This document shows positions 27,501 through 53,364 of a DNA stretch of 64,000 nt, one piece after another. The stretch lies in IMG/VR virus record IMGVR_UViG_3300035156_000198, positions 1 through 64,000 of that record, one strand, 5' to 3'. The notes under the pieces were generated by a model that did not search any database, was not told the DNA's origin, and saw only the letters and a program-made list of their open reading frames with translations. Source of the DNA: a virus. How positions within the stretch are numbered: position 1 is the stretch's first letter; the number at the start of each line of letters is the position of its first letter. Both the position numbers and the translations under genes were made by a program.

Positions 27501-28490
27501 GGCACCGGCAACGCCTCGGGGCCGCACCTTCACTTCGAGATCCGTGGCGGCGGGTCGGCGATCCAACGTGGCAGCAAGGGCGCCCGCGGCGGCATCGACT
27601 CAGGCAACGATGGCGGCGCGATCCGCACCCGTGTGAACACCTACGACGGCATGAGCATCGCCGACGCGGTGAGCCGGCTCAACCCCGCCAAGTGGGTCGC
27701 CGGGGTGCGCCGGTTCGGCGACTGGGGCCGGCTGATGGCCGGCGTGCCGAAGACGATGGCCGGGCAGGCGGTCAGCTACGCGAAGCGCACCATCACCCGG
27801 GCCATCGCCAAGGCATGGAAGTGGGTCACGTCGCATGTCGGTGGCGCGTTCGGTGGCGGCGCCGGCAAGACACTGAACCAGGTCACCGGCCGCCTGGTGC
27901 CGGCCATGCGCGCGGCGTACAAGTTCGCTCAGCAGACCCTCGGCATCCGCAACATCGGCGGCTACTCCTACCGGCCGAACACCGCCAACCCCTCGCAGCT
28001 GTCAGACCACGCCTACGGCAAGGCGCTAGACCTGATGGGCGCCAAACAGAACGTCGCCGACTACTTCGCGTTCGGGCCCGGCCGGCGCCGGTTCAACATC
28101 GAGAACGTCATCTACAACCGGCGAATCACCAACCCCGGGCGAGGCTGGAAGTGGGGCTACTACAGCGGCCCGAACCCGCACACCGACCACGTGCACATCG
28201 ACACCTTCGACCGCGGCGGCCTGGCCCGCGGCATCGGGGTGCTGCCGAAGCGCACCATCAAGCCCGAGCGCATGCTGGACCCCCGCACCACCGTCGCGTT
28301 CGAGCGGCTGGTCGACGGGCTCACCCGGGCCCCGACGGCGGCCGCAGCCGGCGGCACCGCCCGCGCCGCCGGCGCCGCTGCCCTGACGATCACCAACTGG
28401 GAAGAGGGGCGCGGGTACATCAGGTTCCTGGCAGCTGATGAGGTCGGCGCCGACCGTGAGTTCCAAGCCGCCCGAGGAAGGGCCCGATGA
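24525..28490 (+). CDS. Tape measure protein with C-terminal M23-like and M15-like domains
   Basis: A 1321-residue protein overlapping the chaperone by 11 bp. The N-terminus has the tape-measure core (NLIQATTGLPAAGMRSLSDL, SIALSQTGLAANAVGFSV) and long Ile/Val/Arg-rich hydrophobic helices (about 500-770). Near 900-1010 lies an M23/LytM-like domain ending HLHFE; the expected first zinc His appears replaced (FARWAGDI). Near 1150-1230 lies an M15-like domain (LSDHAYGKALDLM, DHVHID). These could open peptidoglycan during DNA entry. Length predicts a tail of roughly 200 nm at about 0.15 nm per residue. Confidence 0.9.
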   Translation: MATEIGRGVIPVGLDDSRLNRDLSRVGANVNSHFDKVGRQAGGVGGRQFGSEFSRNSSGALRGSTRAIEADADDTGRRAGRRMGGSFSGAVGGLAARAGGALGVTVGVAAVGGFVKQAVTLEAEFGKTMNLIQATTGLPAAGMRSLSDLALKMGRDTVFSASDASAAMLELARGGMTAATIKGGALQGTLTLAAAGGLDMATAANVAVKAMGAFNLQGRDMDSVAAALAGAANASAASVGDLSIALSQTGLAANAVGFSVQETTGILAAFSNAGLNGSDAGTSLKTMLSSLTPSTKSATEAFRTLGIITEDGRNRFINANGTYKSAAQIAEILRQGTVKLTDAQRNQAIRQGFGSDAQRAANILANEGARGINRMVKATSDQGAAQRTAQAAMKGTAGAIESLKGSLETATLRFGQLIQPAVIGGLRLATRAINGIEPAIGRVASAFRSGEASTGQYGAIIRNTGRAIGDFVASVLPTLRRVGREIAGTVGPALRDIGRMVMTDLLPAFQRVLPIIAPVARFIIRVIGGAIVGAIKGAVQVIKGIVNVIAGVFKLVSALVRGEWGGAWRALVQIMKGVLQIVVGAIRVWFNVGILGIFKGGVVRLLTSWRGLWTGARQVGSRAMALLGRIIDAGFRAVGAIFRGAARIIGGIFRGMFTLLGRLATAGWRVVSGIFTRSFTAVRGIVTRGVTAVTGFFRGLFTAIGRRTSDGWRNLTGLFRRGLETVRTVTRQVLDKVTGIFAGAWRSIKATGDRLRGLLTGTLPRAFRSGRDAIGRIWDGLKGVAKRPVQFIVNTVYMKGIYRVVAALPGKNPLPPLHFKRGGPVPEHLGTKGKDSVPALLMPNEHVLTAREVAKAGGHKVIEAWRRRIIGGSGYHLKEARAERLAAGGPVQRFWLGGGVKPAAGSVNRHGDYSFARWAGDINEPGSVDIGHPVRAWKAGTVSFAGWGGGDSYGNYMKVNHGDVTTYYAHLSAFGKRPGTRVRAGERIGSKGGTGNASGPHLHFEIRGGGSAIQRGSKGARGGIDSGNDGGAIRTRVNTYDGMSIADAVSRLNPAKWVAGVRRFGDWGRLMAGVPKTMAGQAVSYAKRTITRAIAKAWKWVTSHVGGAFGGGAGKTLNQVTGRLVPAMRAAYKFAQQTLGIRNIGGYSYRPNTANPSQLSDHAYGKALDLMGAKQNVADYFAFGPGRRRFNIENVIYNRRITNPGRGWKWGYYSGPNPHTDHVHIDTFDRGGLARGIGVLPKRTIKPERMLDPRTTVAFERLVDGLTRAPTAAAAGGTARAAGAAALTITNWEEGRGYIRFLAADEVGADREFQAARGRAR

Positions 28491-30775
28491 GCGCGACCCC
28501 TGTCACCCTGCAGAACGCCACCGACGCGACTGTCTTTCAACAGCGGCCGTCGACCAACTACGCCGACGCGCCGGGGCTCAGGTTGCGGGCCGGCTCCGGG
28601 GCCGAGGCCCGGTCGCTGATCTACTTCGCGCGGCCGTTCCCGCTGGGCGCCACCATCCTCGACGCGACACTTCGGCTGTACGCGACGGCCGCGTGGCCGG
28701 CCCAGTCCCGCCGGATCAACGCCTACCGGTGCACGCAACGGTGGGTCGCCCCGACCGTCACCTGGAACAACCAGCCGCCGCACACCACCAGCGCCGGCGC
28801 GTCGCTGACCAAGACGACCGCGGTGGCCGCCGACGAAGTGTGGGCCATCGACGTGACCGACCACATGCAGCTGGTCGCCGACGGTACCGCCTGGTTCGGC
28901 TGGAAGCTGACCACCGACGACACGACTCTGCGCTACCTGCACTCCACGCAAGGGGAGATAAAGCCGACCCTGACGGTGACCTACGCGATGGTGCCGACCA
29001 AGCCGTCCACCCTGTCACCAGCTGGCGGGCGCGCCACCAGCCTCGCCGCGCCGCCGCTCCGGTTCGACTTCACCGACCAGGTGGCCTCCTCGAGTATCCA
29101 GGCCGCCCAGGTGCGCATCGGCACCGACGCGACGCTGACGACCGGCGTGTGGGACTCCGGGGTGGTGTACGTCGACGCTCCGCAGGTCGACCTCGCCGGG
29201 CTGATCCTGCCGAGGGTCGCCAACGGCGGTTTCGACACCGACCTGTCGGGGTGGGTCGGCGGCACGAACACCACCCTGGCCCGCACCACGAACACCGCCC
29301 TGACCAACGGTGGCAGCGCGGGCGCCGCCCAGCTGACCGCCGTCGCCGCCGGCGACATGCACCTGCAGACCAACGTCTACTACGACGTGGTGCCCGGTCA
29401 GTCGTACGCGCTGCTCGGGTCGGTCAGGACCGCCGCCACCGGTCGAACCGTCGAGGCGATAATCGACTGGCGCGACGCCGGCGGCACCATCATCAGCTCG
29501 ACGGTCGGCACCGGGTCGACTGACACCACCAGCTACGCCGGCCGCACCGTGACCGGTGTCGCCCCCGTGGGCGCCGACACCGCCCGGCTCCGGTTCCGAG
29601 TCGCCGGCGCGGCCGCCGCCGAGGTCCACTACGTCGACTCGGTGAACTTCAAGAGCGGCAACCAAACGACCTTCAACGGGGTGCCGACCGGCACGACGTA
29701 CTACTGGCAGGCGCGGGTGCAGGACCAGGCCGGCCTGTGGTCGCCGTACAGCGACATCGTGGCTTTCAGCCGGCAGACCAAGGCCACCACGACCATCACC
29801 AACCCGCCGGCCACCGGCCTCATCACCGAGGCGACCCCGCCGATAGCGTGGACGTTCACCGGCCAGCAGCGGGCCTTTCAGGTCATCATCACCGACGCCG
29901 CCGGCAACACTGACGCCAACAGCGGGGTCCAGGCGTCCACGGCGACCAGCTGGGCGGTGCCGGCCAAGGTGCTGCACGACGGCGAGACGTACACCGCCAC
30001 GGTGCGCGTCTGGGACCAGCACGACCGAGAGAAGGTGCCCGGGGACACCCCTTGGGCCGCCGACTCTCAGACGTTCACCCTGTCTCAGTCGGCGACCGTC
30101 GCCGCGGTGACGGCGTTCACGTCGACCGACCTGTCACCGCAACCGGCCGCGCAGCTGGATTGGACCAGCGCGACGATGCCGGACTCCTACACCATCGTGC
30201 GCGACGGCCGCACCATCGAGGCCGAGCTAGAGCCGTCGCTGCTGCTGGTGTCGGGCACCGCGTACCGCTACGTCGACTGGGGCGCGAGCCCACGCCGGTC
30301 GCACACCTGGATCGTGCGGCGCGTGGTGAACGGTGTCACGTCGTCGGGCAACCCGTCGGCGGTGCGCACCCTGAACCCGCAAGGGGTATGGCTGATTGAC
30401 GACGCCAACGATGTCCAGGTGCAGATACTCGGGCAGGACCCCGGCAGCTGGGAGATGCCCGAGCAAGCCGCGAACTTCGACGTGCTCGGCGCCACCCGCA
30501 CCATCCGCATCACTCAAGGGTTGCAGGGGTTCCAGGGCGAGATAAGCGGCACCCTGGCCGCGTACGGCGGTCAGACGTTGGCGCAGATCGAGGCCGACTT
30601 CTACGCCATCAAGGGCCGGCCCGGGCGGCCGGTGCGGCTGGTCGTCGCCGACTTGAACCTGCCGGTCATCGTGTGGGGGCTGGTCAGCGCGCCGACGCCG
30701 GCGCCCGACCTGAACCGGGCCGTGAAGTTCAACTTCGCGCAGACCGGTGGGCTGCCTTTCAAGGTGACGCTGTGA
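28487..30775 (+). CDS. Distal tail/minor tail protein with DNRLRE-like and Fn3-like domains
   Basis: A 762-residue protein from ATG 28487. The N-terminal 170 residues resemble a DNRLRE carbohydrate-binding module (NYADAPGLRLRAGSGAEARSLIYFA, ...WAIDVTDHMQLVADG). Fn3-like or jelly-roll segments follow. The C-terminus (IRITQGLQGFQGEISGTLA, later GGLPFKVTL) looks like a distal-tail (Dit) hub domain. Probably part of the tail tip with a glycan-binding arm. Confidence 0.7.
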   Translation: MSATPVTLQNATDATVFQQRPSTNYADAPGLRLRAGSGAEARSLIYFARPFPLGATILDATLRLYATAAWPAQSRRINAYRCTQRWVAPTVTWNNQPPHTTSAGASLTKTTAVAADEVWAIDVTDHMQLVADGTAWFGWKLTTDDTTLRYLHSTQGEIKPTLTVTYAMVPTKPSTLSPAGGRATSLAAPPLRFDFTDQVASSSIQAAQVRIGTDATLTTGVWDSGVVYVDAPQVDLAGLILPRVANGGFDTDLSGWVGGTNTTLARTTNTALTNGGSAGAAQLTAVAAGDMHLQTNVYYDVVPGQSYALLGSVRTAATGRTVEAIIDWRDAGGTIISSTVGTGSTDTTSYAGRTVTGVAPVGADTARLRFRVAGAAAAEVHYVDSVNFKSGNQTTFNGVPTGTTYYWQARVQDQAGLWSPYSDIVAFSRQTKATTTITNPPATGLITEATPPIAWTFTGQQRAFQVIITDAAGNTDANSGVQASTATSWAVPAKVLHDGETYTATVRVWDQHDREKVPGDTPWAADSQTFTLSQSATVAAVTAFTSTDLSPQPAAQLDWTSATMPDSYTIVRDGRTIEAELEPSLLLVSGTAYRYVDWGASPRRSHTWIVRRVVNGVTSSGNPSAVRTLNPQGVWLIDDANDVQVQILGQDPGSWEMPEQAANFDVLGATRTIRITQGLQGFQGEISGTLAAYGGQTLAQIEADFYAIKGRPGRPVRLVVADLNLPVIVWGLVSAPTPAPDLNRAVKFNFAQTGGLPFKVTL

Positions 30776-34160: not shown

Positions 34161-34879
34161 GTAGCTACTTCCTGGCGCCGGCGCTGCTGCAGCTCCGCGA
34201 CGAAGTGAACACCGCGTTTCCGCACCGCGACAAGTCATCGTGCGGCTGGATCGGTGACACGTCGCACGCCGCCCGGGTGAGCGACCATAACCCGTGCTGG
34301 TCGTGCTCGGGCCGCCTGGAAGGTGTCGTGCGGGCCCTGGACACCGACATAGACGACGGCGACCCCGGCCGCGACTTGCGCCGGCAGATTCTGAACGCCG
34401 CGGTCGGTGACCGGCGCGTGTGGTACGTCATCAGCAACGGCACCATCTACAGCCGCACCTACGGGTGGGCGGCCCGCCGCTACACCGGCAGCAACGGCCA
34501 CTTCAAGCACGTGCACATCAGTCTCAGGCACGGGGTCGGGGAGTTCGACACGTCGCGCTGGTTCCCCGACATGAAGCGGCCCGGCCTGGCGCCGAGCTTG
34601 GCGCCGGCCGTCGACCTGTCGAACGTGCGCGAGCAGTTCCTTCGGGCGCTGGGCGTCGAGGCCGGCGAGGTCACCGCCCTGCCCGGGGTGGCCCGGGTGC
34701 AGCGGTCGCTGAACCAGAAGTACGGCATGACGCTGACCGTGGACGGCTACGTCGGCGAGGGCACCCTGCACGGCTACGGGGTGCACGAGGCCGCCCGCGG
34801 CATCGAGGGCCGCCCCCGGGTGCCCGACGAGAAGACCCTGCCGCCGCTGATCGGCCCGACGTACCGCATGGTCGCCTGA
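34157..34879 (+). CDS. Endolysin: M15-type peptidase with C-terminal helical domain
   Basis: A 240-residue protein from GTG 34157. The N-terminal 140 residues have the M15/VanY-like zinc pattern (HAARVSDHNP, VRALDTDIDDG, HFKHVHISL). The C-terminal 80 residues (VARVQRSLNQKYGMTLTVDGYVG) look like a peptidoglycan-binding domain. It should cut peptidoglycan cross-bridges or stem peptides. Next to a holin-like gene, so this is the main lysin; GH25 at 3515 is separate. Confidence 0.82.
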   Translation: MSSYFLAPALLQLRDEVNTAFPHRDKSSCGWIGDTSHAARVSDHNPCWSCSGRLEGVVRALDTDIDDGDPGRDLRRQILNAAVGDRRVWYVISNGTIYSRTYGWAARRYTGSNGHFKHVHISLRHGVGEFDTSRWFPDMKRPGLAPSLAPAVDLSNVREQFLRALGVEAGEVTALPGVARVQRSLNQKYGMTLTVDGYVGEGTLHGYGVHEAARGIEGRPRVPDEKTLPPLIGPTYRMVA

Positions 34880-35157
34880 TGCCCGCGCACCGCTACGACC
34901 AGGGCGGCGACGGGCTGCCGCGGCCGTCGCCGGAGTCGACCAGCTCGGGCGCCGACGTGGTGGCCCGCGAGCCGGTGCGCACCTACCTGTACGCCGTCGG
35001 GGTCGCCTGCCTGCTGGTGCTCAACGGCTACGGCATCGTCGCCGACGAGCGAACCGCACTCTGGGGCAACCTGCTGGCCGTCGTGTTCGTCCCAGCCGTC
35101 GAGGCTGCACGCGCCCGCGTGACGCCTGTCCGTAAGCACAGAAGGAGCACCCCGTGA
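34879..35157 (+). CDS. Holin-like membrane protein
   Basis: A 92-residue protein from ATG 34879 (TGATG overlap with the lysin). Two membrane segments (YLYAVGVACLLVLNGYGIV and WGNLLAVVFVPAVEAARA) and a basic C-terminus fit actinophage holins. Its position after the lysin supports the call. Confidence 0.7.
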   Translation: MPAHRYDQGGDGLPRPSPESTSSGADVVAREPVRTYLYAVGVACLLVLNGYGIVADERTALWGNLLAVVFVPAVEAARARVTPVRKHRRSTP

Positions 35158-35984
35158 GAGTCGTCCTCGGCAACCGTGACGCCGCCATCCACCCGTCACC
35201 AGCTGACCCGGTGGAGGTCGAAGTGCAGCCGCGCGCCAAGCGCGCCACCGTGTTCGATGACAACCCCGACGACGGGCACACCCTCGGGCAGCTGTTCACG
35301 TCCATCACCCACCCGACACAAGGTGTCTGGGCAAGCCACGCCGTCGAGGGGTCGAAGCCGGCATGGGTGGCCTCGGACAGCGAGGGCATGGCCGCGCTGC
35401 TCGCCGAGCACTACGGCGGCATCGAGATTCGGGAGCTCGAGGACCCCTTCGCCGACCCGGCCGCCGGCATCAAGGGCACCGACGACTCGGTGCGCGACTC
35501 ACGCCGACGCGGCGGCGGCGGCGCGGGAGGGGCCAAGGGTGCGGCGGCGCTGAACCTGATGCTGCTGGCCACGGTGGCGATGCTGGCCAAGGTCCAGCCG
35601 TGGCTGAAGACCAGCTACGGAAACGACTTCCAGGCCCGGCAGATGGCCGGCGCCGCGTCGGCCACCGCGGTCGCCCGGTTCGTGGGCCTGTCAGCGAACA
35701 CGACCGCGCCGGCAGCTGGCGACACCACCCTGACGGGGGAGATCGTCACCGCCGGCCTCACCCGGCAGGGCGGCACGTACGCCCACACAACCGGCGTCGC
35801 GTCGTACACGATCACCACGACGTTCACAGCTCAGGCCGCCGACGTGCCGGTGACGGTCGGCAAGCGGGGCACGTTCGAGGCGCTCGCCGGCGGCTCCCAG
35901 GTGTTCTCCACCCTCATCACGCCGACGGCGACCCTGTCCGCAGCCGGGGACACCCTGACGCTGACCGACACTGTGACGCTGTAG
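35154..35984 (+). CDS. Structural (fibre/tip) protein
   Basis: A 276-residue protein from GTG 35154. The N-terminal 115 residues form a compact domain; a Gly-rich linker and a hydrophobic stretch (LNLMLLATVAMLA) follow; the C-terminal half is the beta-rich pattern common in phage fibre/baseplate proteins (TTLTGEIVTAGLTRQGGTYA, VTVGKRGTFEALAGG). The exact position in the virion is unknown. Confidence 0.55.
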   Translation: MRVVLGNRDAAIHPSPADPVEVEVQPRAKRATVFDDNPDDGHTLGQLFTSITHPTQGVWASHAVEGSKPAWVASDSEGMAALLAEHYGGIEIRELEDPFADPAAGIKGTDDSVRDSRRRGGGGAGGAKGAAALNLMLLATVAMLAKVQPWLKTSYGNDFQARQMAGAASATAVARFVGLSANTTAPAAGDTTLTGEIVTAGLTRQGGTYAHTTGVASYTITTTFTAQAADVPVTVGKRGTFEALAGGSQVFSTLITPTATLSAAGDTLTLTDTVTL

Positions 35985-35985
35985 C

Positions 35986-36438
35986 GTGCGCGTCGCCCTG
36001 TCCGGTCGCAGCGCAGCGACGGCCGCGACCATCAACGCCGTCGGCGCCGCCCTGTGGAACCCGCACGCCTCGATCCGGCTCAGGGTCTACGAGATTTCGT
36101 GGGCCAAGACGGTGGCGACCGTCGACAACATGGCGCTGGTCCGCACCACCACCCGCGGCACGGTGACCACCATCGCATCGACCGTCGACAACGAAACCGA
36201 CCGGGCCGCCGTCGCCCCGTCCGGTGCTGGCCTCGACGTGACGTACACCGCCCAGCCGACCATCGCATCAGCTGCCGCGCCGCTGGCCCGGTGGAACCTG
36301 CCGGCGGCCATCGGCGCGGGGTTCGTGTGGTCACTGCCCGAGGAGTGGGAGATACCGCCGGGCACGGGCCTGGCGATTATGACGCCGGTGGCGACGATCC
36401 TGCAGCCGGCCGACGTGTCGTTCCGCTGGGCCGAGTAG
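35986..36438 (+). CDS. Structural protein, fibre-associated
   Basis: A 150-residue, beta-rich protein from GTG 35986. The C-terminus (GFVWSLPEEWEIPPGTGLAI) resembles small tail-fibre-associated jelly-roll proteins. Lies between two fibre-type genes. Confidence 0.5.
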   Translation: MRVALSGRSAATAATINAVGAALWNPHASIRLRVYEISWAKTVATVDNMALVRTTTRGTVTTIASTVDNETDRAAVAPSGAGLDVTYTAQPTIASAAAPLARWNLPAAIGAGFVWSLPEEWEIPPGTGLAIMTPVATILQPADVSFRWAE

Positions 36439-36455: not shown

Positions 36456-39400
36456 ATGCCCGTCATCCGGTACACCGACTACCTCGGCGTCACCCGCAAC
36501 CGGCTGCCGACCTCGCCGACGGCGCTGCACTCACCGCGCACCGGCAGCCGCGAGATAGACGGCGGGCCGGGCAACCCGGTCCTGTTCGCTGACGACTTCA
36601 ACCGGCCCGACCAGGCGCTGAACGCCAACGGCAACTGGATCAACGCCTCGGCCGGCACACCCATGTCCATCATCGGCGGCCAGCTGGTCGGCGGCACCAC
36701 CGCGTCGCCGGCGTTCCGGTGGGCCGCCCCAACGGCCAGCGACGACCAGTTCTCCGAGGTCCAATGGCTCGGCGGCAGCTTCAACGGGCCGAACGTGCAG
36801 ATGAGCAGCTACGCCGCCAACGCCGGCGCGAGCACGGTGCCGCCGTTCTACGTGTTCCGGTGGAACTCCGCGACGAACGTCGGGCTGGGCTACAAGACCG
36901 CCGGCAGCTCGACGTACACCGCCCTCACGTCGGCCACCTACACCCTGACCCCGGGCGACCTGATGCGCCTGGAGTACGTGGGCGGCATCCTGCGCTGCTA
37001 CGTGAACGACGTGCTGCTGATCACCCACGACCCGGTGGCGCTCAGGATCACCGGTCAGCGGCACGTCGGCATCGGCGTGAACACCGGGTCGGCCTCGGGC
37101 CTGACCCTGTTCGACAACTGGCGCGGCGGTGACGCGGCCGCCTACGTGCCGGCGGTCCTGCCGACGGCGTACGTGGCGACCACCAGCGACGCGGCACCAG
37201 CTGCCGACACCGCGAGCGCAGCGGTCACCCCGGCGACCCCGCCGAGCACCGTGGTGTTCTTCGATGACTTCACCGGCCCGGCCGGCACCGCCCCGTCGGC
37301 GGCGTCCTGGTCGTACGACATCGGCGACCTCGGGGTGAACAACGAGCTGCAGACCTACACCAGCTCGGCGGCCAACGTGGCCACCGACGGCGCCGGGAAC
37401 CTGGCCATCGTCGCCCGCTCGGACGGCGCCGGCGGCTACACCAGCGGCCGCATCCACGCCATCGGCAAGGTCGCCCAGCAGTTCGGGCGCATCGAGGCCC
37501 GGATCAAGGTGCCCAAGGGCACGGGGCTGTGGCCGGCGTTCTGGGCGATGAGCGACCCGGCGGTGTACGGCGCGTGGCCCCGCAACGGCGAAATCGACAT
37601 CCTCGAATCGGTGAACGCGATGCTCACCGACACCACATCGCTGCACGGGCCGATGACCGCCGCACCGGGCACACCCTGGCACCTGAACCGCACATGGACC
37701 CCCGGCCTGGACCTCTCGGCTGACTTCCACGTGTACGCCGTCGAGTGGCAAACCAACCTCATCGCGTTCTACCTCGACGGGGGCCTGGCGCACGTGCTGA
37801 CGCCGGCGGACATGCCGGCGGGGGCGACGTGGCCTTTCAACGACAAGCCGTTCTCCCCGATCCTGAACCTCGCCGTCGGTGGCGACTTCCCCGGGCAGAC
37901 CGTCGACCCGGCGGCGCTGCCGGCGACCATGCTTGTCGACTACGTGCGGATCACCACCCCGCCGACTGGTGGGTTCACCGCCGCCCGCCCCAAGGTGTCG
38001 ACGCTGGTTACCGCGTTCACCGACCAACGCGAGTTCGAGGGCTGGTGGGCCGCGGCCGCCCTCGCCGGCGGCGCCCTGGTGCTGCAGGTCAACAATCAGT
38101 ACGGCGGCATCCTGCGCTCCGAGCGACGCTTCGACCTCACCAGCTCGCAGATGTCCGCGCAGCTGGTCGCCCCGCCCAACGTCGGCGCCGGCACCACCGA
38201 GACGCAATTCCAGGCGCTGGCCAACCCGAGCAACTACGTGGACTTCGGGTGGGTGAACGGCACCCTCTACTGCCGCGAAGTGGTCAACGGGGCCTCCGAC
38301 GCGACGTACCCGGGCTACACCCCGGCGCAAGACAAGTTCCTCCGCATGCGCCACGACGGCACGAACCTCATCTGGGAGACCTCACCTGACGGCGTGACCG
38401 GGTGGGTGACGCGCCGGTCGAAGGTGCCCGTCGTGCCGCTGACGAACCTCGGGGTGCAGCTGGTCGCCGGCTACTACGGCACCGAGACGGCGCCGGGCAC
38501 CGCGACGTGGGACGACCTGAACACCACCGCCGCCGCGCCGGCGCAGCTCGCCCGAGCTGCAGCTGACACCGCCTCTGCAGCTGACGCCACGACCAGGGCG
38601 ACCACCCGGACCAGGGCGACCGGCGACGCGGCCGCCGCCGCCGACCAGCTGACCCGTGCGGCGACCCGGGCCAGGGCGACCCTAGACACCGCACCAGCTG
38701 CCGACACCGTGGCCACCAGCGCGGTGCCGGCCCTGGCGCAGCTGACCCGCTCGACCACCGACACCGCGGCCGCGAGCGACGCCCTGACGGCCGCACGAGA
38801 CGCGGCCAGGGCGACGGTCGACACCGCAACAGCTGCCGACACCGCCACCGCCGAGGTCACCCCGGCGGCCACTGGGCCAGCGATCACCGCCGGCAACGGG
38901 TTCGAGGGCCTCGCCGACGGCACCACGATCACCCCGGCCAACAGCGGCGGCGCGTCGGGCACCGCGTTCGACGCCGCCACCATCCCGTCGTCTGGGCAGA
39001 CCATCGCCGTGTCGGCGGCCAGGGCCGCGCACGGCACCCGGTCGCTGCAGATCGGCACCGGCGCGACCGCGACGACCTCGAACCTGTCATGGATGGCCGC
39101 CGTCGGTGCGCGCACCACGTTCTACCTCCGGTGGTACGCCTACTTCACGGCGCTGCCGGCGTCGTCCTCGACGTTGTGGCGGGGGCTGCTCGGCGGCACA
39201 ACCGGCATGGGCATCAACCTGTCATCGGCCGGCGCGCTTCGGGCCCAGGACGCCGCCGGCGCATCATCGACGGCGACGACCGTCCCGGGCTCGATCCCGC
39301 TGAATCAGTGGTTCCGGGTCGAGGCTCGGGTCGTAGCCGGCACCGGCGGCACCGGCACCATCGAGATCCGCCGCTACGACACCGCAGACGCACCGGTCGG

Positions 39401-41438
39401 GTCACCGTCGGCGAGCATCACCGCCACCGGCCTGACCCTCACCGCGTCGTTCGACACGTACCGATTCGGCCTGATGACCTCCCTGGCCAACTGGGGGCCG
39501 GTGTGGATTGACGACCTCGGGGTGAACCTCACCGACTGGTGCGGCCCGGCGGTCGCCACCGGCCCGCCGGGCCCGGTGACAGTCGACGCTGACATCACCG
39601 ACCTGGCACCGGCCGCCGACACCACCGCCGCGGCGGTCACGACGGCGCGAGCTGCAGCTGACACCGCGCCGGCTGCCGACACCACCGCGGCCGCGGTGAC
39701 CCGCGTCCTGGCCGCGACGGTCGCCGACCCCGCTCCCGCCGTGGACGCTGCCACCCGGGTCACCACCCGAGCAAGGGCCGCCACCGACGCCACAGGAGGC
39801 GCTGACAGCGTCGCAGCGGCGTCGGCGAGGGTCAGGGCGGTCAGCGACTCCGCGGCCGGGAGCGACGCGCTGGTGGCTTCCAGTGGCCGCACACGCGCCG
39901 CCGGCGACACCGCACCGGCCGTCGACCAGCTCACCCGCGCCGAGACCCGGGCCCGCGCCGCGGTCGACACCGCGGCCGCCGCTGACCAGCTGACCCGGGC
40001 CCGGGCTGGAGCTCGGGCGGTCACCGACGCGGCCGCCGCCGGCGACGCCCTCACCACCAGGTCGGCGCGAGCCCGTACCCTCACCGACGCGGCGGGCGCC
40101 GGCGACACCACCGCATCGTCGTCGGCGCACGTCCTGACCGCGGCCGCAGCTGACACCGCGCCGGCAGCTGACACCACGACCGCCCGAGCGGCCCGCGTGC
40201 GAGCTGCAGCCGACACCGCCGCCGCTGCCGACACCACCACCAGGGGCACGACCCGGGCCCGAGCTGCCGGCGACACCGCGCCGGCGGCTGACTCGGCCAC
40301 CAGGGGAGCGGCCGCCGCCCGCCCGACCACCGACACCGCCCCGACCGTCGACACCCTGACGACCAGGGCCACCCGGGCCCGGGCCCTCACCGACACCGCG
40401 CCGGCGGGCGACATCACCGCCGCCGGCGCGGCCCACCAGCTCGCCGCCACGACCACCGACACCGCGGCCGCCGTCGACCAGCTGGCCCGCACCGTGGCAC
40501 GGACCCGGACGGCAGGCGACACCGCCCCGACCGTCGACACCACCGCGCGGGCCGGTTCTCGAGCCCGGGCCTCCATCGACGCCGCGCCGGCAGCTGATGC
40601 CGCCGCGCAGACCTCTACGCACGTCCTGGCCCGGGCGGCCAGCGATACCGCCGCCGCCGTCGACCAGCCGGCCAGGGCGACCAGCTCGGCGCGAGCTGCA
40701 GCCGACACGGCGCCGGCGGGCGACCAGACGGCCAGGGCGACGACCCGCGCGCGAGCCGTGGGCGACACCGCGCCGGCAGCTGACACGACCGCCCAAACCT
40801 CCGCGCACGTCCTCACCAGGGCCACCAGCGACGCCGCGGCGGCCGCCGATGCCACCGCCCGGGCCACCAGCCGCGCGCGAGCTGTCACCGACGTATCGGC
40901 TGTGACCGATACGCCGACCAGGGCCACCACCCGCGGCCGCGCGACCCTCGACGCCGCTGCAGCTGCCGACCAGCTGGCCGTCGCCGTCGCGCAGGCGCTG
41001 GCCGCGGCCGCCGCCGACACGGCACCGGCGACCGATGTCACCAGCCGCCGGGTCATGCGGGCCCGCACACCGACCGACACCGCACCAGCGGTCGACGTGA
41101 CGACCAGGGCCACCACCGCCGGCAGCCTGGTCACCGACGCCGCACCGCTGGCCGACCTGGTGACGCGAGCCGCGGCGACCGCACGGGCCCAGCTCGACAC
41201 CGCCCTGGCCGTCGACCTGGCCGGCGCCGTGGTCGAGGTCTACGTGCCGCCGGTGTTCATCGTCACCCGGCCTGGCCTGACCGTGACCGCGCGAGCTGGC
41301 GGCCTGACCGTCACCGCCCGAGCTGGCGGGCTGCAGCTGGTCGGCAACGGCGCCGGCCTGGTCATCGAGCAACCGGCGGCCGGCCTGGCCGTCACCGGCC
41401 ACCGCACCGACGCGGGCATGGTGCCCGCCGACGCCTGA
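36456..41438 (+). CDS. Giant tail fibre: lectin-like domains, GH16 glycanase and 33 DxAxxxD repeats
   Basis: A 1660-residue protein. Domains: lectin-like (about 45-225); short repeat linker; GH16 beta-glucanase-type domain (about 265-510) with catalytic EIDILE (E379, D381, E384); second lectin-like domain (about 515-690); five repeats; third lectin-like domain (about 810-1030); then 27 repeats (about 1042-1588) of 20-22 residues centred on D-x5-D such as DTAPAAD with flanking TRAR. The C-terminus carries tandem GLTVTARAG. It probably degrades a beta-glucan-type surface glycan while the repeat shaft extends the fibre. Confidence 0.8.
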   Translation: MPVIRYTDYLGVTRNRLPTSPTALHSPRTGSREIDGGPGNPVLFADDFNRPDQALNANGNWINASAGTPMSIIGGQLVGGTTASPAFRWAAPTASDDQFSEVQWLGGSFNGPNVQMSSYAANAGASTVPPFYVFRWNSATNVGLGYKTAGSSTYTALTSATYTLTPGDLMRLEYVGGILRCYVNDVLLITHDPVALRITGQRHVGIGVNTGSASGLTLFDNWRGGDAAAYVPAVLPTAYVATTSDAAPAADTASAAVTPATPPSTVVFFDDFTGPAGTAPSAASWSYDIGDLGVNNELQTYTSSAANVATDGAGNLAIVARSDGAGGYTSGRIHAIGKVAQQFGRIEARIKVPKGTGLWPAFWAMSDPAVYGAWPRNGEIDILESVNAMLTDTTSLHGPMTAAPGTPWHLNRTWTPGLDLSADFHVYAVEWQTNLIAFYLDGGLAHVLTPADMPAGATWPFNDKPFSPILNLAVGGDFPGQTVDPAALPATMLVDYVRITTPPTGGFTAARPKVSTLVTAFTDQREFEGWWAAAALAGGALVLQVNNQYGGILRSERRFDLTSSQMSAQLVAPPNVGAGTTETQFQALANPSNYVDFGWVNGTLYCREVVNGASDATYPGYTPAQDKFLRMRHDGTNLIWETSPDGVTGWVTRRSKVPVVPLTNLGVQLVAGYYGTETAPGTATWDDLNTTAAAPAQLARAAADTASAADATTRATTRTRATGDAAAAADQLTRAATRARATLDTAPAADTVATSAVPALAQLTRSTTDTAAASDALTAARDAARATVDTATAADTATAEVTPAATGPAITAGNGFEGLADGTTITPANSGGASGTAFDAATIPSSGQTIAVSAARAAHGTRSLQIGTGATATTSNLSWMAAVGARTTFYLRWYAYFTALPASSSTLWRGLLGGTTGMGINLSSAGALRAQDAAGASSTATTVPGSIPLNQWFRVEARVVAGTGGTGTIEIRRYDTADAPVGSPSASITATGLTLTASFDTYRFGLMTSLANWGPVWIDDLGVNLTDWCGPAVATGPPGPVTVDADITDLAPAADTTAAAVTTARAAADTAPAADTTAAAVTRVLAATVADPAPAVDAATRVTTRARAATDATGGADSVAAASARVRAVSDSAAGSDALVASSGRTRAAGDTAPAVDQLTRAETRARAAVDTAAAADQLTRARAGARAVTDAAAAGDALTTRSARARTLTDAAGAGDTTASSSAHVLTAAAADTAPAADTTTARAARVRAAADTAAAADTTTRGTTRARAAGDTAPAADSATRGAAAARPTTDTAPTVDTLTTRATRARALTDTAPAGDITAAGAAHQLAATTTDTAAAVDQLARTVARTRTAGDTAPTVDTTARAGSRARASIDAAPAADAAAQTSTHVLARAASDTAAAVDQPARATSSARAAADTAPAGDQTARATTRARAVGDTAPAADTTAQTSAHVLTRATSDAAAAADATARATSRARAVTDVSAVTDTPTRATTRGRATLDAAAAADQLAVAVAQALAAAAADTAPATDVTSRRVMRARTPTDTAPAVDVTTRATTAGSLVTDAAPLADLVTRAAATARAQLDTALAVDLAGAVVEVYVPPVFIVTRPGLTVTARAGGLTVTARAGGLQLVGNGAGLVIEQPAAGLAVTGHRTDAGMVPADA
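39580..41220 (+). repeat. Tandem 60-66-bp coding repeat tract (27 units)
   Basis: The DNA coding the DxAxxxD shaft shows repeated GACACCGCxCCGGCxGxxGAC cores at 60-66-bp intervals. The units are diverged, so the tract is old, but recombination could still change its length. Very long reverse-strand open frames here are a by-product of the GC-rich repeats. Confidence 0.75.
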
Positions 41439-48900: not shown

Positions 48901-49146
48901 TCACCCGTCCGTGACCGGTGAGGCCGTAGGAGGGGCGATAGACGAACGTGCAACCATCGCCGCGTGCCGGGCCTGATGCTCGGCCAGCGCGATGTCGTCG
49001 GGCTTGGCGTTCCAGTCATCGAGGAACGCGCGCAACACCTCCGAGAGCCCGTCGGCGATGCGCAACCGCTGCGCCTTGTCGATGGCCGGCGACCATAGGT
49101 AGCCCTCCGCGCGGAACTGGCGGTGCCTGGTGCCGGTCTGACTCAT
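48901..49146 (-). CDS. Small helical hypothetical protein
   Basis: An 81-residue protein from ATG 49146 (ATGA overlap with the large hydrolase gene). Helical core AQRLRIADGLSEVLRAFLDD. Last gene of the transfer-like operon. No family recognised. Confidence 0.55.
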   Translation of the reverse strand: MSQTGTRHRQFRAEGYLWSPAIDKAQRLRIADGLSEVLRAFLDDWNAKPDDIALAEHQARHAAMVARSSIAPPTASPVTDG

Positions 49147-51539
49147 GGCCGGAATCCTCCCATGATCGTGTCGTCGGCGGCGGCTGCACGAGTCACGACG
49201 ATGGGATGGTCGGTGGCGGCGTCGACCTGGCGGCTGTCATCGACCACCGTCCTCGAGAAACGGGTGCCCGGCGAGCCGGTGATCCAGTCGATACCGCGGT
49301 ACGCCCAGCTGGTCGCCGACACCATGCCGGCAGCTCGGGCGCGGCGGCCGAACTCGGCCTTCTCGTTCATGTCGCCGACCAGGTACACCGGGTCGCCGTA
49401 GCCGGCGAGCTGACGCACCGCCCGGAGCTCGATGGCCAGGGCCTCACGCCGCCACCGGTCCTGGTTCCCTCGGTGGGTTTTGCTCGACGGGTTGTGCACC
49501 GAGAGGAACCACGACGCCCGGCCTGCCCGGTCGACCAGCCGCACCGCCGGCATGTCGCGGCCGTGCCCACCGAAGTACGGCACCCGCACCAGCCTGGTCG
49601 CCACCCCGTCGGCGAGGGTGAACGCCGCCCGTCGCCACGCGACCTGATTGTCACCGCTCCCCCACCTGGCGAACGCGCCGCCGGTGAGCTTGTCGAACGC
49701 CCGCACCTGGCGGCCTTGCGCTTCCTGCAGGCCGATCACGTCGACCCGGTGCCGGGCGATCACGTCGACGGCGTGCACGATGCGCCGGTCAGCTGACGCC
49801 GCGCCGGTGTGCGAGGCGCCGCGAATGTTGAAGGTGGCCAGGGCGAACGAGTCGCCGCCGGCGATGGTCGACCACGACGCCGGCAACGTGCCGACGCTGC
49901 TGGCGCGGCCGACCTTGCGGGCGAGCCACCTGGTCGGGTCCACCCCGTCGGCGTAGATGCTGCCGTTGCGCGGGTGAACCTCGAAGTGCAGATGGCACCC
50001 GGTGGCGTTCCCCTCGGCGCCGACCTCGCCGAGCTGCTGCCCGGCGCGCACCGTCTGCCCGTCGGTCACGTCGAGGGCTTGCATGTGGGCGTACCACGTG
50101 GTCAGCGACGCCGGCCCTGTCTCGACCTTCACCAGCCACCGGCCCGCCCAGCTCGCCGACGTGTCGACCCGCACGGTGCCGGCCGTGGCGGCGACCACCG
50201 GGGTGCCGCATGACGCCGAGAAGTCGGTGCCGGTGTGCTCACGTGCCCACCGTGACCCCGACCGGCCGTAGTTGCGTCGGTCGGTGGCAGCCACCGGCGC
50301 GACCACCGAGAGCGACCCGCCGCTGCTGCAGCTGGGCGCCGGCGCCGCGGCGCGCGGCGCCTGGTCGTGGAAGTCGATGTGCACGTGGTCGTAGTGCGGT
50401 GACCCGCCGGGCGGCACGTCGTAGTCGTGCAGGCCGCGGCCGCGGTTGAAGATCCGCATGCTGTAGATCACGTTGTCGGCGCCGCTGGTGGTGTAGCCCG
50501 GCCCCGCGAAGTAGTCGAAGATGGCGCGGCCCTGGTCGGCGTCGGTGGGGAACACGTCGATGGCGAGCCCGTCGGCATGCTTGGACCGGCGGCCGGTGCT
50601 GCCGATGTTCCGGTCGGCGTACCCGTCGATGCGCACGTCGCCCCAACGTGACCGCACCAGGTCAGCGGCGGCGGCCGCCACAGGCCGGAGGCCGTTCGGT
50701 GTCGAGCTGGTCGCCGACGCCGGGGTGACGGTGCCGGCGGGGTCGCCGGCGACGGTGAGCCGGTCGATGGCTGCGCGGGCCTCGGCTAGATGCGCCCGGT
50801 AGTCACCGTTGCGCCATGTCGTCCACGGGTCCCAACCCTCGGCGGTCCAGAGCTTGTGCGCGGCGGCCGCGTTGTCGCCCAGGTCGTCCCACCTGGTGCC
50901 AGGTGGGAACAGGCCGGCGTGCATCGGCAGCATCATCTGCATCAGGCCCGACGCGCCGGATGGGTTGCGGGCCCGACGCTTGTAGCGGGACTCCGCGCCG
51001 CCGATGGCCAGGGCGGTCACCGCGTCATCGCCGGCCCACCCGGCCCGGAGGATGGCGCGAGCTGCCGGGTCGATGCCGTCGGCGTCGGCGGCAGCTGCAG
51101 CGGGCAAGACCGTGGTCGGGCACGGGTCGCACGCGCCGGCCGGCAGCACACCAGGCGCCGGGTCGGGCTCGGGCTCGACCGGTGCGGCGGCACCCTTCGC
51201 TGCAGCGGTGAACACCCCGACCAGGCGGCCGGCCTCGCGGTAGCCGTCGTTCACCGCGCGGGTCACCCCGGCCACCGACGGCGGCCCAGCCTCAAGGTCA
51301 CGGAACACCGCGCCGGCCTTCGCCGCGACACCGGTGGCGCCGCCGGCCGGCTTCCCGTCGGGTGCAGCCTGAGACACCCCGCCGGCGCTGCAGCTGATGA
51401 ACGGCACCCCGTCGAGGTCGCCGTCGTAGAACTGCGGCAGCACCATCAGCAGCATCCCGCCGGCGATGAGCAGCCGAGCCCACATCGGTGTGCTGGTCTT
51501 GCGCACCACGATGGTGCGCGTCACCACCCGGTCAGGCAT
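49143..51539 (-). CDS. Membrane-anchored four-domain enzyme: transglycosylase, M15-like, M23 and EEP nuclease
   Basis: A 798-residue protein from ATG 51539. A membrane helix (LLIAGGMLLMVLPQFYDGD) is near the N-terminus. Domains: lysozyme-like transglycosylase (about 170-250; GGAESRY, GLMQM); M15-like (about 290-400; SKHADGLAIDVF, DHVHID); M23 (about 425-530; HTGTDF, HLHFEV, zinc ligands intact); EEP nuclease (about 565-785; FNIRG, GLQEAQ, GDMNE, TDHPIVV). Three domains cut glycan or peptide bonds of the wall, the fourth phosphodiesters. Coupled to the FtsK-like gene, it resembles conjugation wall hydrolases but with an extra nuclease. Confidence 0.85.
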   Translation of the reverse strand: MPDRVVTRTIVVRKTSTPMWARLLIAGGMLLMVLPQFYDGDLDGVPFISCSAGGVSQAAPDGKPAGGATGVAAKAGAVFRDLEAGPPSVAGVTRAVNDGYREAGRLVGVFTAAAKGAAAPVEPEPDPAPGVLPAGACDPCPTTVLPAAAAADADGIDPAARAILRAGWAGDDAVTALAIGGAESRYKRRARNPSGASGLMQMMLPMHAGLFPPGTRWDDLGDNAAAAHKLWTAEGWDPWTTWRNGDYRAHLAEARAAIDRLTVAGDPAGTVTPASATSSTPNGLRPVAAAAADLVRSRWGDVRIDGYADRNIGSTGRRSKHADGLAIDVFPTDADQGRAIFDYFAGPGYTTSGADNVIYSMRIFNRGRGLHDYDVPPGGSPHYDHVHIDFHDQAPRAAAPAPSCSSGGSLSVVAPVAATDRRNYGRSGSRWAREHTGTDFSASCGTPVVAATAGTVRVDTSASWAGRWLVKVETGPASLTTWYAHMQALDVTDGQTVRAGQQLGEVGAEGNATGCHLHFEVHPRNGSIYADGVDPTRWLARKVGRASSVGTLPASWSTIAGGDSFALATFNIRGASHTGAASADRRIVHAVDVIARHRVDVIGLQEAQGRQVRAFDKLTGGAFARWGSGDNQVAWRRAAFTLADGVATRLVRVPYFGGHGRDMPAVRLVDRAGRASWFLSVHNPSSKTHRGNQDRWRREALAIELRAVRQLAGYGDPVYLVGDMNEKAEFGRRARAAGMVSATSWAYRGIDWITGSPGTRFSRTVVDDSRQVDAATDHPIVVTRAAAADDTIMGGFRP

Positions 51540-53364
51540 CGAGCTTCTCGCGGGACTCCTCGGCCTCGGCCTGCCGGCGGCGGCGAGCTGCCGGCAGCTC
51601 GATGCGCCGGTGGGCGTTGCGGCCGTTGTGGACCTTGTTGTAGATCGGGTTCTCCGTCTCGATGGCCCGCTTCTCGGCGGCCTCGGCGAGCTTGCGGGTG
51701 TCGAACCATTCGACGGTGCGCTGCACGTCGCCCTCCATGAACTCGCGGAGCGCGGCGGTGTGCTGGGACTCGCGGCGCAGAATGTCGAAGCTGATGCCGA
51801 TGTAGCCCGGCCGGTCGACCTCGGGGTTCGCGTCGGCGTGGAACCAGCGGTACAGGGCGGTGCGCCTCGGCGCGGTGTCACGCACGGCCCGCTCGGAGCG
51901 GGCGTCGGTGGCTTCCTGGTGTGCGCGCTCGACGTTGCGCGGCAGCTCGCCGCGGGCGATGAGCTTCACTTCGGCGTCGGTGACCTCCGCGGCCCGGAAC
52001 TTCGCCGGCCGGCGCTCACCCTCGGCGTCTGACCAGCCGACGCCGGGCTCCTGGACCTCTGAGCACAGGGCGCCCTTGGATTCGGCGTACCCGCCGAGCA
52101 CCGCGTCGGTGGTCTGCGGCGCGTCGGTCGCCACGCAAATGCGCTGCGGGATGAACGACCTGACCCGGCCGAGCACGTCGAGCTGGGCGGCCTGAGTGTT
52201 CATCCACACCACGTACCAAGCCGCGGCGCCCATGTAGGCGATGCGGCCCAGCGGGCTGTCCTGGCCCTTGGTCAAGATGGCCTGGAGCGCGACGGTCTCA
52301 TCGAGCAGCACCACCACGAGCGGGTACTTCTCCGAGGCCTTCTCGAGCTTGCGCACCCCGTCGAGCTTCATGTGATGCTTGCGGGCCTTCATCGCCTTCT
52401 CGGCGTGGCCGATCATCTCGATGGTGGCCGCCACCGTCGGCGCGTACTCCCGAACCGTGATGAGCCGGTGCAGCGGCAGGACGTTGCCCTTGGCCGCCTC
52501 GGCCTCACGCATCGCCCGCTCGAACTCCTGCAGCTCCAACCCTTCCTTGGGGTCGCTGACGTAAATCTCGACGGGCAACCCCTGCCGGATGCAATCGGCG
52601 AGCAGGGCCCAGCAGATGTTCGACTTCCCCATGCGGGTCAGGCCGCCGATCAGCACCGACTGGTTCGCGATGATGGTGGCCGGTGTGCCGTCCTGCCTGA
52701 TGCCGTAGGCCAGGCGCGTGTCGCCCCTGGACCCGAGCGACGCCGGCGGCATGGCGGCCAGCGGCAGCACCCGTCCGATCGGGTCACGGAAGTGGAACGC
52801 GAACCTCCCGACGCCCGAGCCCGTCGGCGTGACGGTGACCTCGGCGCACCCGATGACTTCCTTCAGGAACTCGGTCTTGGCCTGGAACTTGAATACCGGG
52901 ACGCCGACCTCGCCGCACCTGACCTCGGCCGTGAATGACCCGTGGCCGTTCCCTCGCAACCGGCGCAACGCGGGAGGGCCGGTCCGCTTGGCTGTCAGCT
53001 CGGCCGCCTCGCATGCCAGCGGCCACTGAGCCCGGATCACGTGCTTCTGCTGGGCGTCTTCCCATAGCTCCCGCGGGGTGGGCGCGGCGCCTTCGGCGCC
53101 GCGACACCGCCACGCTACCCATGCTGTCAACCCCATGACCACCAGAACCGCGGCCCGGATGACCGCCCCCTGAAAGCCGAACCGGCTCCACGCCCACAGG
53201 AACGCGACCGTCACCGCGGTCACCCGGTAGTGACGGATGCACCACCGGGCCAGGCGGCCGGTGTGGTACATCCCGAACGGCATCGGGAACTCATCTACCA
53301 GGCGTGTGCCCGAGCCGAAGGTTCGGTGCCTGATGTTCCTCACGGTGTCAGGTCGACGGGACAT
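51532..53364 (-). CDS. FtsK/TraB-like DNA translocase fused to a GIY-YIG domain
   Basis: A 610-residue protein. Two N-terminal membrane helices (residues about 40-90) precede a RecA-like motor with Walker A GGLTRMGKSN and Walker B VVVLLDETVAL, typical of the FtsK/SpoIIIE/TraB group that pumps double-stranded DNA. The C-terminal 110 residues form a GIY-YIG-like domain (ALYRWFHADA, GYIGISFDILRRESQH, Glu in ETENPIYNKV). In actinomycete plasmids and AICEs a TraB-type FtsK protein alone can mediate conjugal transfer. The fused nuclease domain is unusual. The stop overlaps the hydrolase start region. Confidence 0.85.
   Translation of the reverse strand: MSRRPDTVRNIRHRTFGSGTRLVDEFPMPFGMYHTGRLARWCIRHYRVTAVTVAFLWAWSRFGFQGAVIRAAVLVVMGLTAWVAWRCRGAEGAAPTPRELWEDAQQKHVIRAQWPLACEAAELTAKRTGPPALRRLRGNGHGSFTAEVRCGEVGVPVFKFQAKTEFLKEVIGCAEVTVTPTGSGVGRFAFHFRDPIGRVLPLAAMPPASLGSRGDTRLAYGIRQDGTPATIIANQSVLIGGLTRMGKSNICWALLADCIRQGLPVEIYVSDPKEGLELQEFERAMREAEAAKGNVLPLHRLITVREYAPTVAATIEMIGHAEKAMKARKHHMKLDGVRKLEKASEKYPLVVVLLDETVALQAILTKGQDSPLGRIAYMGAAAWYVVWMNTQAAQLDVLGRVRSFIPQRICVATDAPQTTDAVLGGYAESKGALCSEVQEPGVGWSDAEGERRPAKFRAAEVTDAEVKLIARGELPRNVERAHQEATDARSERAVRDTAPRRTALYRWFHADANPEVDRPGYIGISFDILRRESQHTAALREFMEGDVQRTVEWFDTRKLAEAAEKRAIETENPIYNKVHNGRNAHRRIELPAARRRRQAEAEESREKLDA

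Follow-up and report, generated by a model that had tools for sequence, protein, structure and literature searches.

A predicted phage tail-fibre protein joins a GH16 beta-1,3-glucanase-type domain to a widespread D-x5-D repeat

Results

We describe a viral gene for a 1660-residue protein in which a GH16 glycanase domain is set among tandem repeats of a short aspartate-containing unit. We consider it rather likely that it serves as the payload arm in an accessory tail-fibre module of a predicted siphophage with a probable actinobacterial host. In this reading the GH16 domain would trim beta-1,3-glucan at the surface of the host, and the repeats would form a spacer shaft. The protein combines a known principle, the modular depolymerase fibre, with an undescribed and widespread repeat.

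The stretch analysed (hereafter the window) comprises 64,000 of the 74,174 bases of IMG/VR record IMGVR_UViG_3300035156_000198 and has a GC content of 72%. Its structural genes follow the standard siphophage order of terminase, portal, protease, capsid, major tail protein, tape measure, tail proteins and an ORF with a holin match; the tape measure carries an M23 peptidase, and the closest terminase from an isolate is that of Streptomyces phage Chymera (52%). Judged by these genes, the phage is probably a siphophage with an actinobacterial host of soil type. A second carbohydrate-related protein, with a CBM96 and a Rha78A-type Ig domain, is encoded in the tail region (28487-30775), and two frames on the minus strand are unusual phage neighbours: a long one with an M23-type endolysin match (49143-51881) is paired with one matching FtsK/SpoIIIE and an endonuclease (51532-53364).

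The fibre gene is an open frame with coding-type GC by codon position (0.67/0.65/0.91 overall and 0.75/0.76/0.87 in the repeat part); long frames also run opposite to it on the minus strand, as is usual in DNA of high GC. Its product consists of four globular modules and 33 copies of one 20-22-residue unit, arranged as follows.

36456..41438, plus strand: giant fibre gene, 1660 aa (open frame, coding GC3)
36579..37133, plus strand: N-terminal domain, aa 42-226, DDFNRPDQALNANGNW (BLASTP match to the N-domain of L078)
37161..37220, plus strand: single D-x5-D linker unit, D245 (motif count)
37242..37961, plus strand: GH16 beta-1,3-glucanase (laminarinase-type) domain, aa 263-502 (PF00722, PDB 2hyk)
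37587..37607, plus strand: catalytic motif GEIDILE, aa 378-384, with E379, D381 and E384 (aligned to GEIDIME of 2hyk)
37989..38525, plus strand: third globular domain, aa 512-690 (without Pfam or PDB match)
38538..38879, plus strand: linker of 5 D-x5-D units, D704-D789 (motif count)
38889..39560, plus strand: fourth globular domain, aa 812-1035 (homologous to the pre-repeat domain of L018)
39573..41240, plus strand: C-terminal shaft of 27 D-x5-D units, D1049-D1581 (spacing 20 or 22)
41274..41408, plus strand: five 9-residue repeats, GLTVTARAG-like, after the shaft (27-base tandem repeat)

The 9-residue repeats that follow the shaft read GLTVTARAG (twice), GLQLVGNGA, GLVIEQPAA and GLAVTGHRT.

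An initial sequence-only reading of this DNA had proposed a GH16 glycanase with an EIDILE motif, and both the Pfam and the PDB searches bear this out. The domain scores 58.7 bits with PF00722 against a cut-off of 22 (E 6.6e-16), and its best PDB sequence matches are the bacterial beta-1,3-glucanases 2hyk (E 6.1e-53) and 3atg (1e-49), which we take to be actinobacterial enzymes. The intact GEIDILE motif pairs with GEIDIME in 2hyk and has the longer ExDxxE form, which is that of laminarinase-type GH16 enzymes. The whole catalytic domain and the GEID[IM]xE motif are thus shared with these glucanases, but here the domain is embedded in a 1660-aa phage fibre amid repeat linkers. Family membership suggests that the substrate is beta-1,3-glucan. 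A curdlan-type beta-1,3-glucan has been found in an actinobacterium, Cellulomonas flavigena (PMC10819609); that such a glucan is the polymer of this phage's host is speculation. Another IMG/VR phage contig (L084) encodes GH16 as a separate 282-aa protein, and the gene for it lies downstream of a 1,031-aa ORF.

The domains around GH16 had also been described as lectin-like, which we could not establish. Residues 42-226, 512-690 and 812-1035 gave no Pfam match even at E 10 and no convincing PDB sequence match, so that 'lectin-like' is a guess; CBM, LamG and ConA-like profiles were sought in all three domains and none matched. The fourth domain is related to a domain that precedes the repeats of L018 (29% identity, E 2e-7 / 4.5e-6). 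The N-terminal half of the fibre had no relative in the IMG/VR scan, and the N-terminal domain has a weak BLASTP match (27%, E 0.002) to the N-domain of L078, where D-x5-D repeats likewise follow.

The fibre contains 35 matches to D-x5-D, 33 of them in in-register repeat units, while residue-shuffled versions of the protein contain 8.2 on average and 20 at most. One unit lies at D245, five at D704-D789 and 27 at D1049-D1581, confirming by motif count the proposed 33 repeats with 27 in a C-terminal shaft and the others (1+5) reused as linkers. Within the shaft the spacing is 20 residues (20 times) or 22 (6 times) and takes no other value; a spacing of 25 occurs once, in the middle linker. From about 375 units in 14 proteins we derived the consensus R(-4)-x3-D(0)-[TS]-A-[PA]-A-x-D(+6)-x-[VAL]-x-R(+10), with R-4 in 86%, D0 in 97%, A+2 in 90%, A+4 in 88% and R+10 in 64% of units, and D+6 in 100% by the way units were selected. 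The R-x3-D-x5-D-x3-R motif is mirror-symmetric about position +3. Units of the form R-x3-D-x-A-x-A-x-D-x3-R stand in tandem at 18-22 residues, which places them in the D-x5-D repeat family of phage fibres as defined in this analysis; a literature search for the unit string returned no match. Nucleotide identity between units is 0.57-0.60 at every lag, with no fall over distance. We therefore rejected recent tandem duplication as the origin of the array, which must be either old or homogenised.

We found related repeats in many other viral contigs. IMG/VR scans yielded about 15 distinct contigs with 7-38 related units, mostly of 20-21 residues, and a freshwater branch with E/D-x5-D units contributed about 50 more loci; the scan with L024 of this branch gave 54 loci, nearly all encoding one small protein, and L024 itself matched no Pfam family. 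These small phage proteins (L025-L076, for which 'freshwater' is a habitat guess) have a near-invariant N-terminus, M[PA][DE]GGWxSGTWGEAGWGM, followed by a variable number of 20-residue E-x5-D repeats and a C-terminal DDxQxxxW repeat. Profile comparison of the two branches scored 38.1 (P 3.6e-6), against a maximum of 16.0 among 20 controls in which period and composition were kept, and an 18-residue variant in L078 scored 24.2 against a control maximum of 12.6. In L077:4371-5801, His replaces the second Asp (D-x5-H) in 6 of 8 units, which shows that an acid at this position is not indispensable.

The cargo that accompanies the repeats differs between relatives. L022 has a GDSL lipase and a match to a PHROG annotated 'tail protein', L012 a CBM_4_9-like match that falls under the curated cut-off, L018 the relative of the window's domain 4, and L015 a Gly-rich domain; L007 has none. 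At L022:4048-7470 the D-x5-D repeats lie on both sides of the lipase, a plug-in design with another enzyme. As for the suggestion that the repeat family is unrecognised, it holds for Pfam, which has no such family, but PHROG 12240 and 23524 (unknown function) match the repeat regions of L007, L018 and L013, and do not match the window repeats; neither carries a function or structure annotation. No isolate phage with the repeat emerged from tblastn and distant blastn searches with the repeats, the whole gene and the upstream gene, a negative weakened by Ala-rich masking; these searches returned only an unannotated faecal contig, through its GH16 domain, and a marginal match outside the repeats. 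Two short-pattern scans of 84,980 bacterial and archaeal species genomes likewise gave no relative, and divergent copies could escape such patterns.

To ask what kind of structure the unit might adopt, we compared substitutions between close relatives. In the L013/L014 orthologues, substitutions fall at 9 of 280 even and 50 of 245 odd unit positions (p 2e-10), and the contrast persists when the four signature residues are left out (p 8e-6). The same alternation is seen in L013/L023 and L006/L008, the three pairs not being independent of one another: from -4 to +10, every other position is constrained and those between vary. D0, A+2 and D+6 were unchanged in 105 of 105 comparisons, with D0 and D+6 conserved in part because units were picked in one sequence, and 16-28 changes were counted at +1, +3, +5, +7 and +9. 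The dN/dS ratio in the repeats is 0.33-0.34. Extended strands produce just such a two-residue alternation, which here runs over fifteen residues and argues for beta structure rather than disorder.

Predicted models are of low confidence. AlphaFold gave a pLDDT of 37 for seven window units and 49 for L040, the latter with 18-residue strands and turns inside the D-x5-D motif; because both values are low, we claim no fold. Foldseek with the predicted model found nothing under E 0.001 in the PDB, and its BFVD matches were uncultured-phage proteins of unknown function and, weakly (E 0.003), a 'minor tail protein' of Gordonia phage Phendrix. The earlier idea of a repeating fibre fold nevertheless gains support from the alternating constraint and from the strands in these weak models, and we infer that the unit forms beta strands in a regular shaft, probably only when assembled.

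Two other accounts of the repeats bear on this proposal. They could be intrinsically disordered Pro/Ala/Ser/Thr-rich linkers or tethers in which Asp and Arg serve only for solubility and neutrality, as the pLDDT of 37 and the composition of the shaft (Ala/Thr/Pro/Asp/Arg, one aromatic residue, charges 58:55) might suggest. However, a disordered tether accords poorly with the constraint on every second position from -4 to +10 while the alternates drift, with a shaft spacing restricted to 20 or 22, and with a unit that can still be identified in phages whose composition differs widely (score 38.1, with no period-preserving control above 16.0), and we regard it as unlikely. Pure disorder together with absence from relatives is not what we found, since many phages carry the repeat and its pattern of constraint is unlike that of disorder. 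Alternatively, the units may be metal sites, for example for calcium, that stiffen the shaft in the manner of RTX or dockerin repeats without belonging to those families. The invariance of D0 and D+6 in all 105 comparisons would suit such sites, which could also tolerate the Glu at position 0 of the freshwater branch and the His at +6 in L077; on the other hand, the RTX and dockerin Pfam profiles had no match in the fibre, nor did any Pfam calcium repeat, and Arg at -4 and +10 could pair with the Asp residues instead. The conserved acids (D/E at 0, D or H at +6) are compatible with metal binding and do not prove it, and dedicated metal sites appear to us about as improbable as disorder. Our own, tentative proposal, which we hold at somewhat less than even confidence, is that the D-x5-D unit (period 18-22) represents an undescribed, widespread fibre-shaft fold of long beta strands that would become ordered only on oligomerisation or on metal or ion-pair formation, and that could serve as a general plug-in scaffold for swapped enzymes and binding domains. 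The triple beta-spiral of adenovirus and reovirus fibres is likewise an extended shaft built from a short repeat with alternating residues; its unit has 15 residues and lacks D-x5-D.

We then considered the genes directly upstream of the fibre gene, which are listed below.

34420..35157, plus strand: ORF with holin match, directly upstream of the module (PF23809 E 6.3e-7, phrog_565)
35154..35984, plus strand: upstream partner, 276 aa, adaptor/fibril candidate (homologues near repeat genes)
35986..36438, plus strand: small protein, 150 aa, between adaptor and fibre (counterparts elsewhere; BLASTP E 6e-5 to an L021 frame)

Homologues of the 276-aa protein lie upstream of a repeat gene at 12 or more loci, often adjacent to it and always within 3.6 kb. 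The L009 homologue passes the threshold of Pfam Gp80 (PF23140, 'Podophage GP4 fiber I') with 34.1 against 27 bits; the window's own copy is below that cut-off and is linked to Gp80 only through this relative. The likeness to gp80 of Ralstonia phage GP4 therefore runs through a relative of the upstream gene, and GP4 is a podophage whereas the window phage is a siphophage. Counterparts of the 150-aa protein (156-183 aa) occupy the same place at several other loci; at L007:7030-7863 a homing-endonuclease-like reading frame separates the small middle gene from the repeat gene.

A comparable arrangement has been reported for Alishewanella phage LSH1 in a 2026 paper (PMC13243795), where gp34-36 form a cluster downstream of lysis that encodes an enzyme-like payload, a GP4-like fibril and an Ig-fold protein. 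Its authors call these virion proteins, propose gp36 for attachment, gp35 as fibril and gp34 as payload, and ask whether a poorly modelled payload region is repetitive (PMC13243795). Both loci have three adjacent genes, comprising a payload enzyme, a GP4-type fibril candidate and a small protein, downstream of holin or lysis functions. The LSH1 payload is polysaccharide-lyase-like, whereas that of the window is GH16, and the comparison with LSH1 is one of published descriptions. By this analogy the window locus reads as the same kind of module. A different 20-residue repeat occurs in Slickus01 (OQ508957), a relative of LSH1, and no similarity between it and D-x5-D could be detected; the likeness to LSH1 and Slickus01 is consequently one of build and not of shown homology. 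The Slickus01 protein (L081:7380-14321) has 2313 aa, repeated payload-type domains and a C-terminal 20-residue period (autocorrelation 230 versus about 160); we rejected it as a D-x5-D homologue, as it shares the period and has no sequence link.

The position of the fibre gene downstream of a holin match could also indicate that the protein stays outside the virion, either as an enzyme set free when the cell lyses or as the product of an auxiliary gene, and breaks down biofilm or storage glucan in the surroundings of the host. In marine Bacteroidetes viruses, GH16 has been interpreted as an auxiliary metabolic gene (PMC11019789). We find this improbable, more so than either alternative for the repeats. 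The enzyme is fused to 33 repeat units and three further modules, the repeat proteins of relatives lie in the same module as a fibre-I homologue, L022 matches a PHROG annotated as tail protein, and the comparable LSH1 module is reported to consist of virion proteins (PMC13243795).

Discussion

Together, these observations favour a fibre carried on the virion. The adaptor pair, the 276-aa protein of GP4 fibre-I type and the 150-aa protein, would anchor the fibre to the particle, and the 27-unit shaft would give it reach. The GH16 domain would cut beta-1,3-glucan in the outer polysaccharide of the host while the flanking domains hold it, and cutting and holding together would allow the phage to reach the wall. 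Exchange of cargo between the repeats could let lineages change their target sugar while shaft and anchor are retained.

The GH16 domain points to a host surface that bears beta-1,3-glucan. The repeats may account for one class of 'unpredictable' regions next to payload enzymes, and they offer a shaft module with a testable fold. Which bacteria a phage attacks depends in part on fibres with swappable enzymes, and D-x5-D provides a defined, countable marker of such fibres in uncultured phages.
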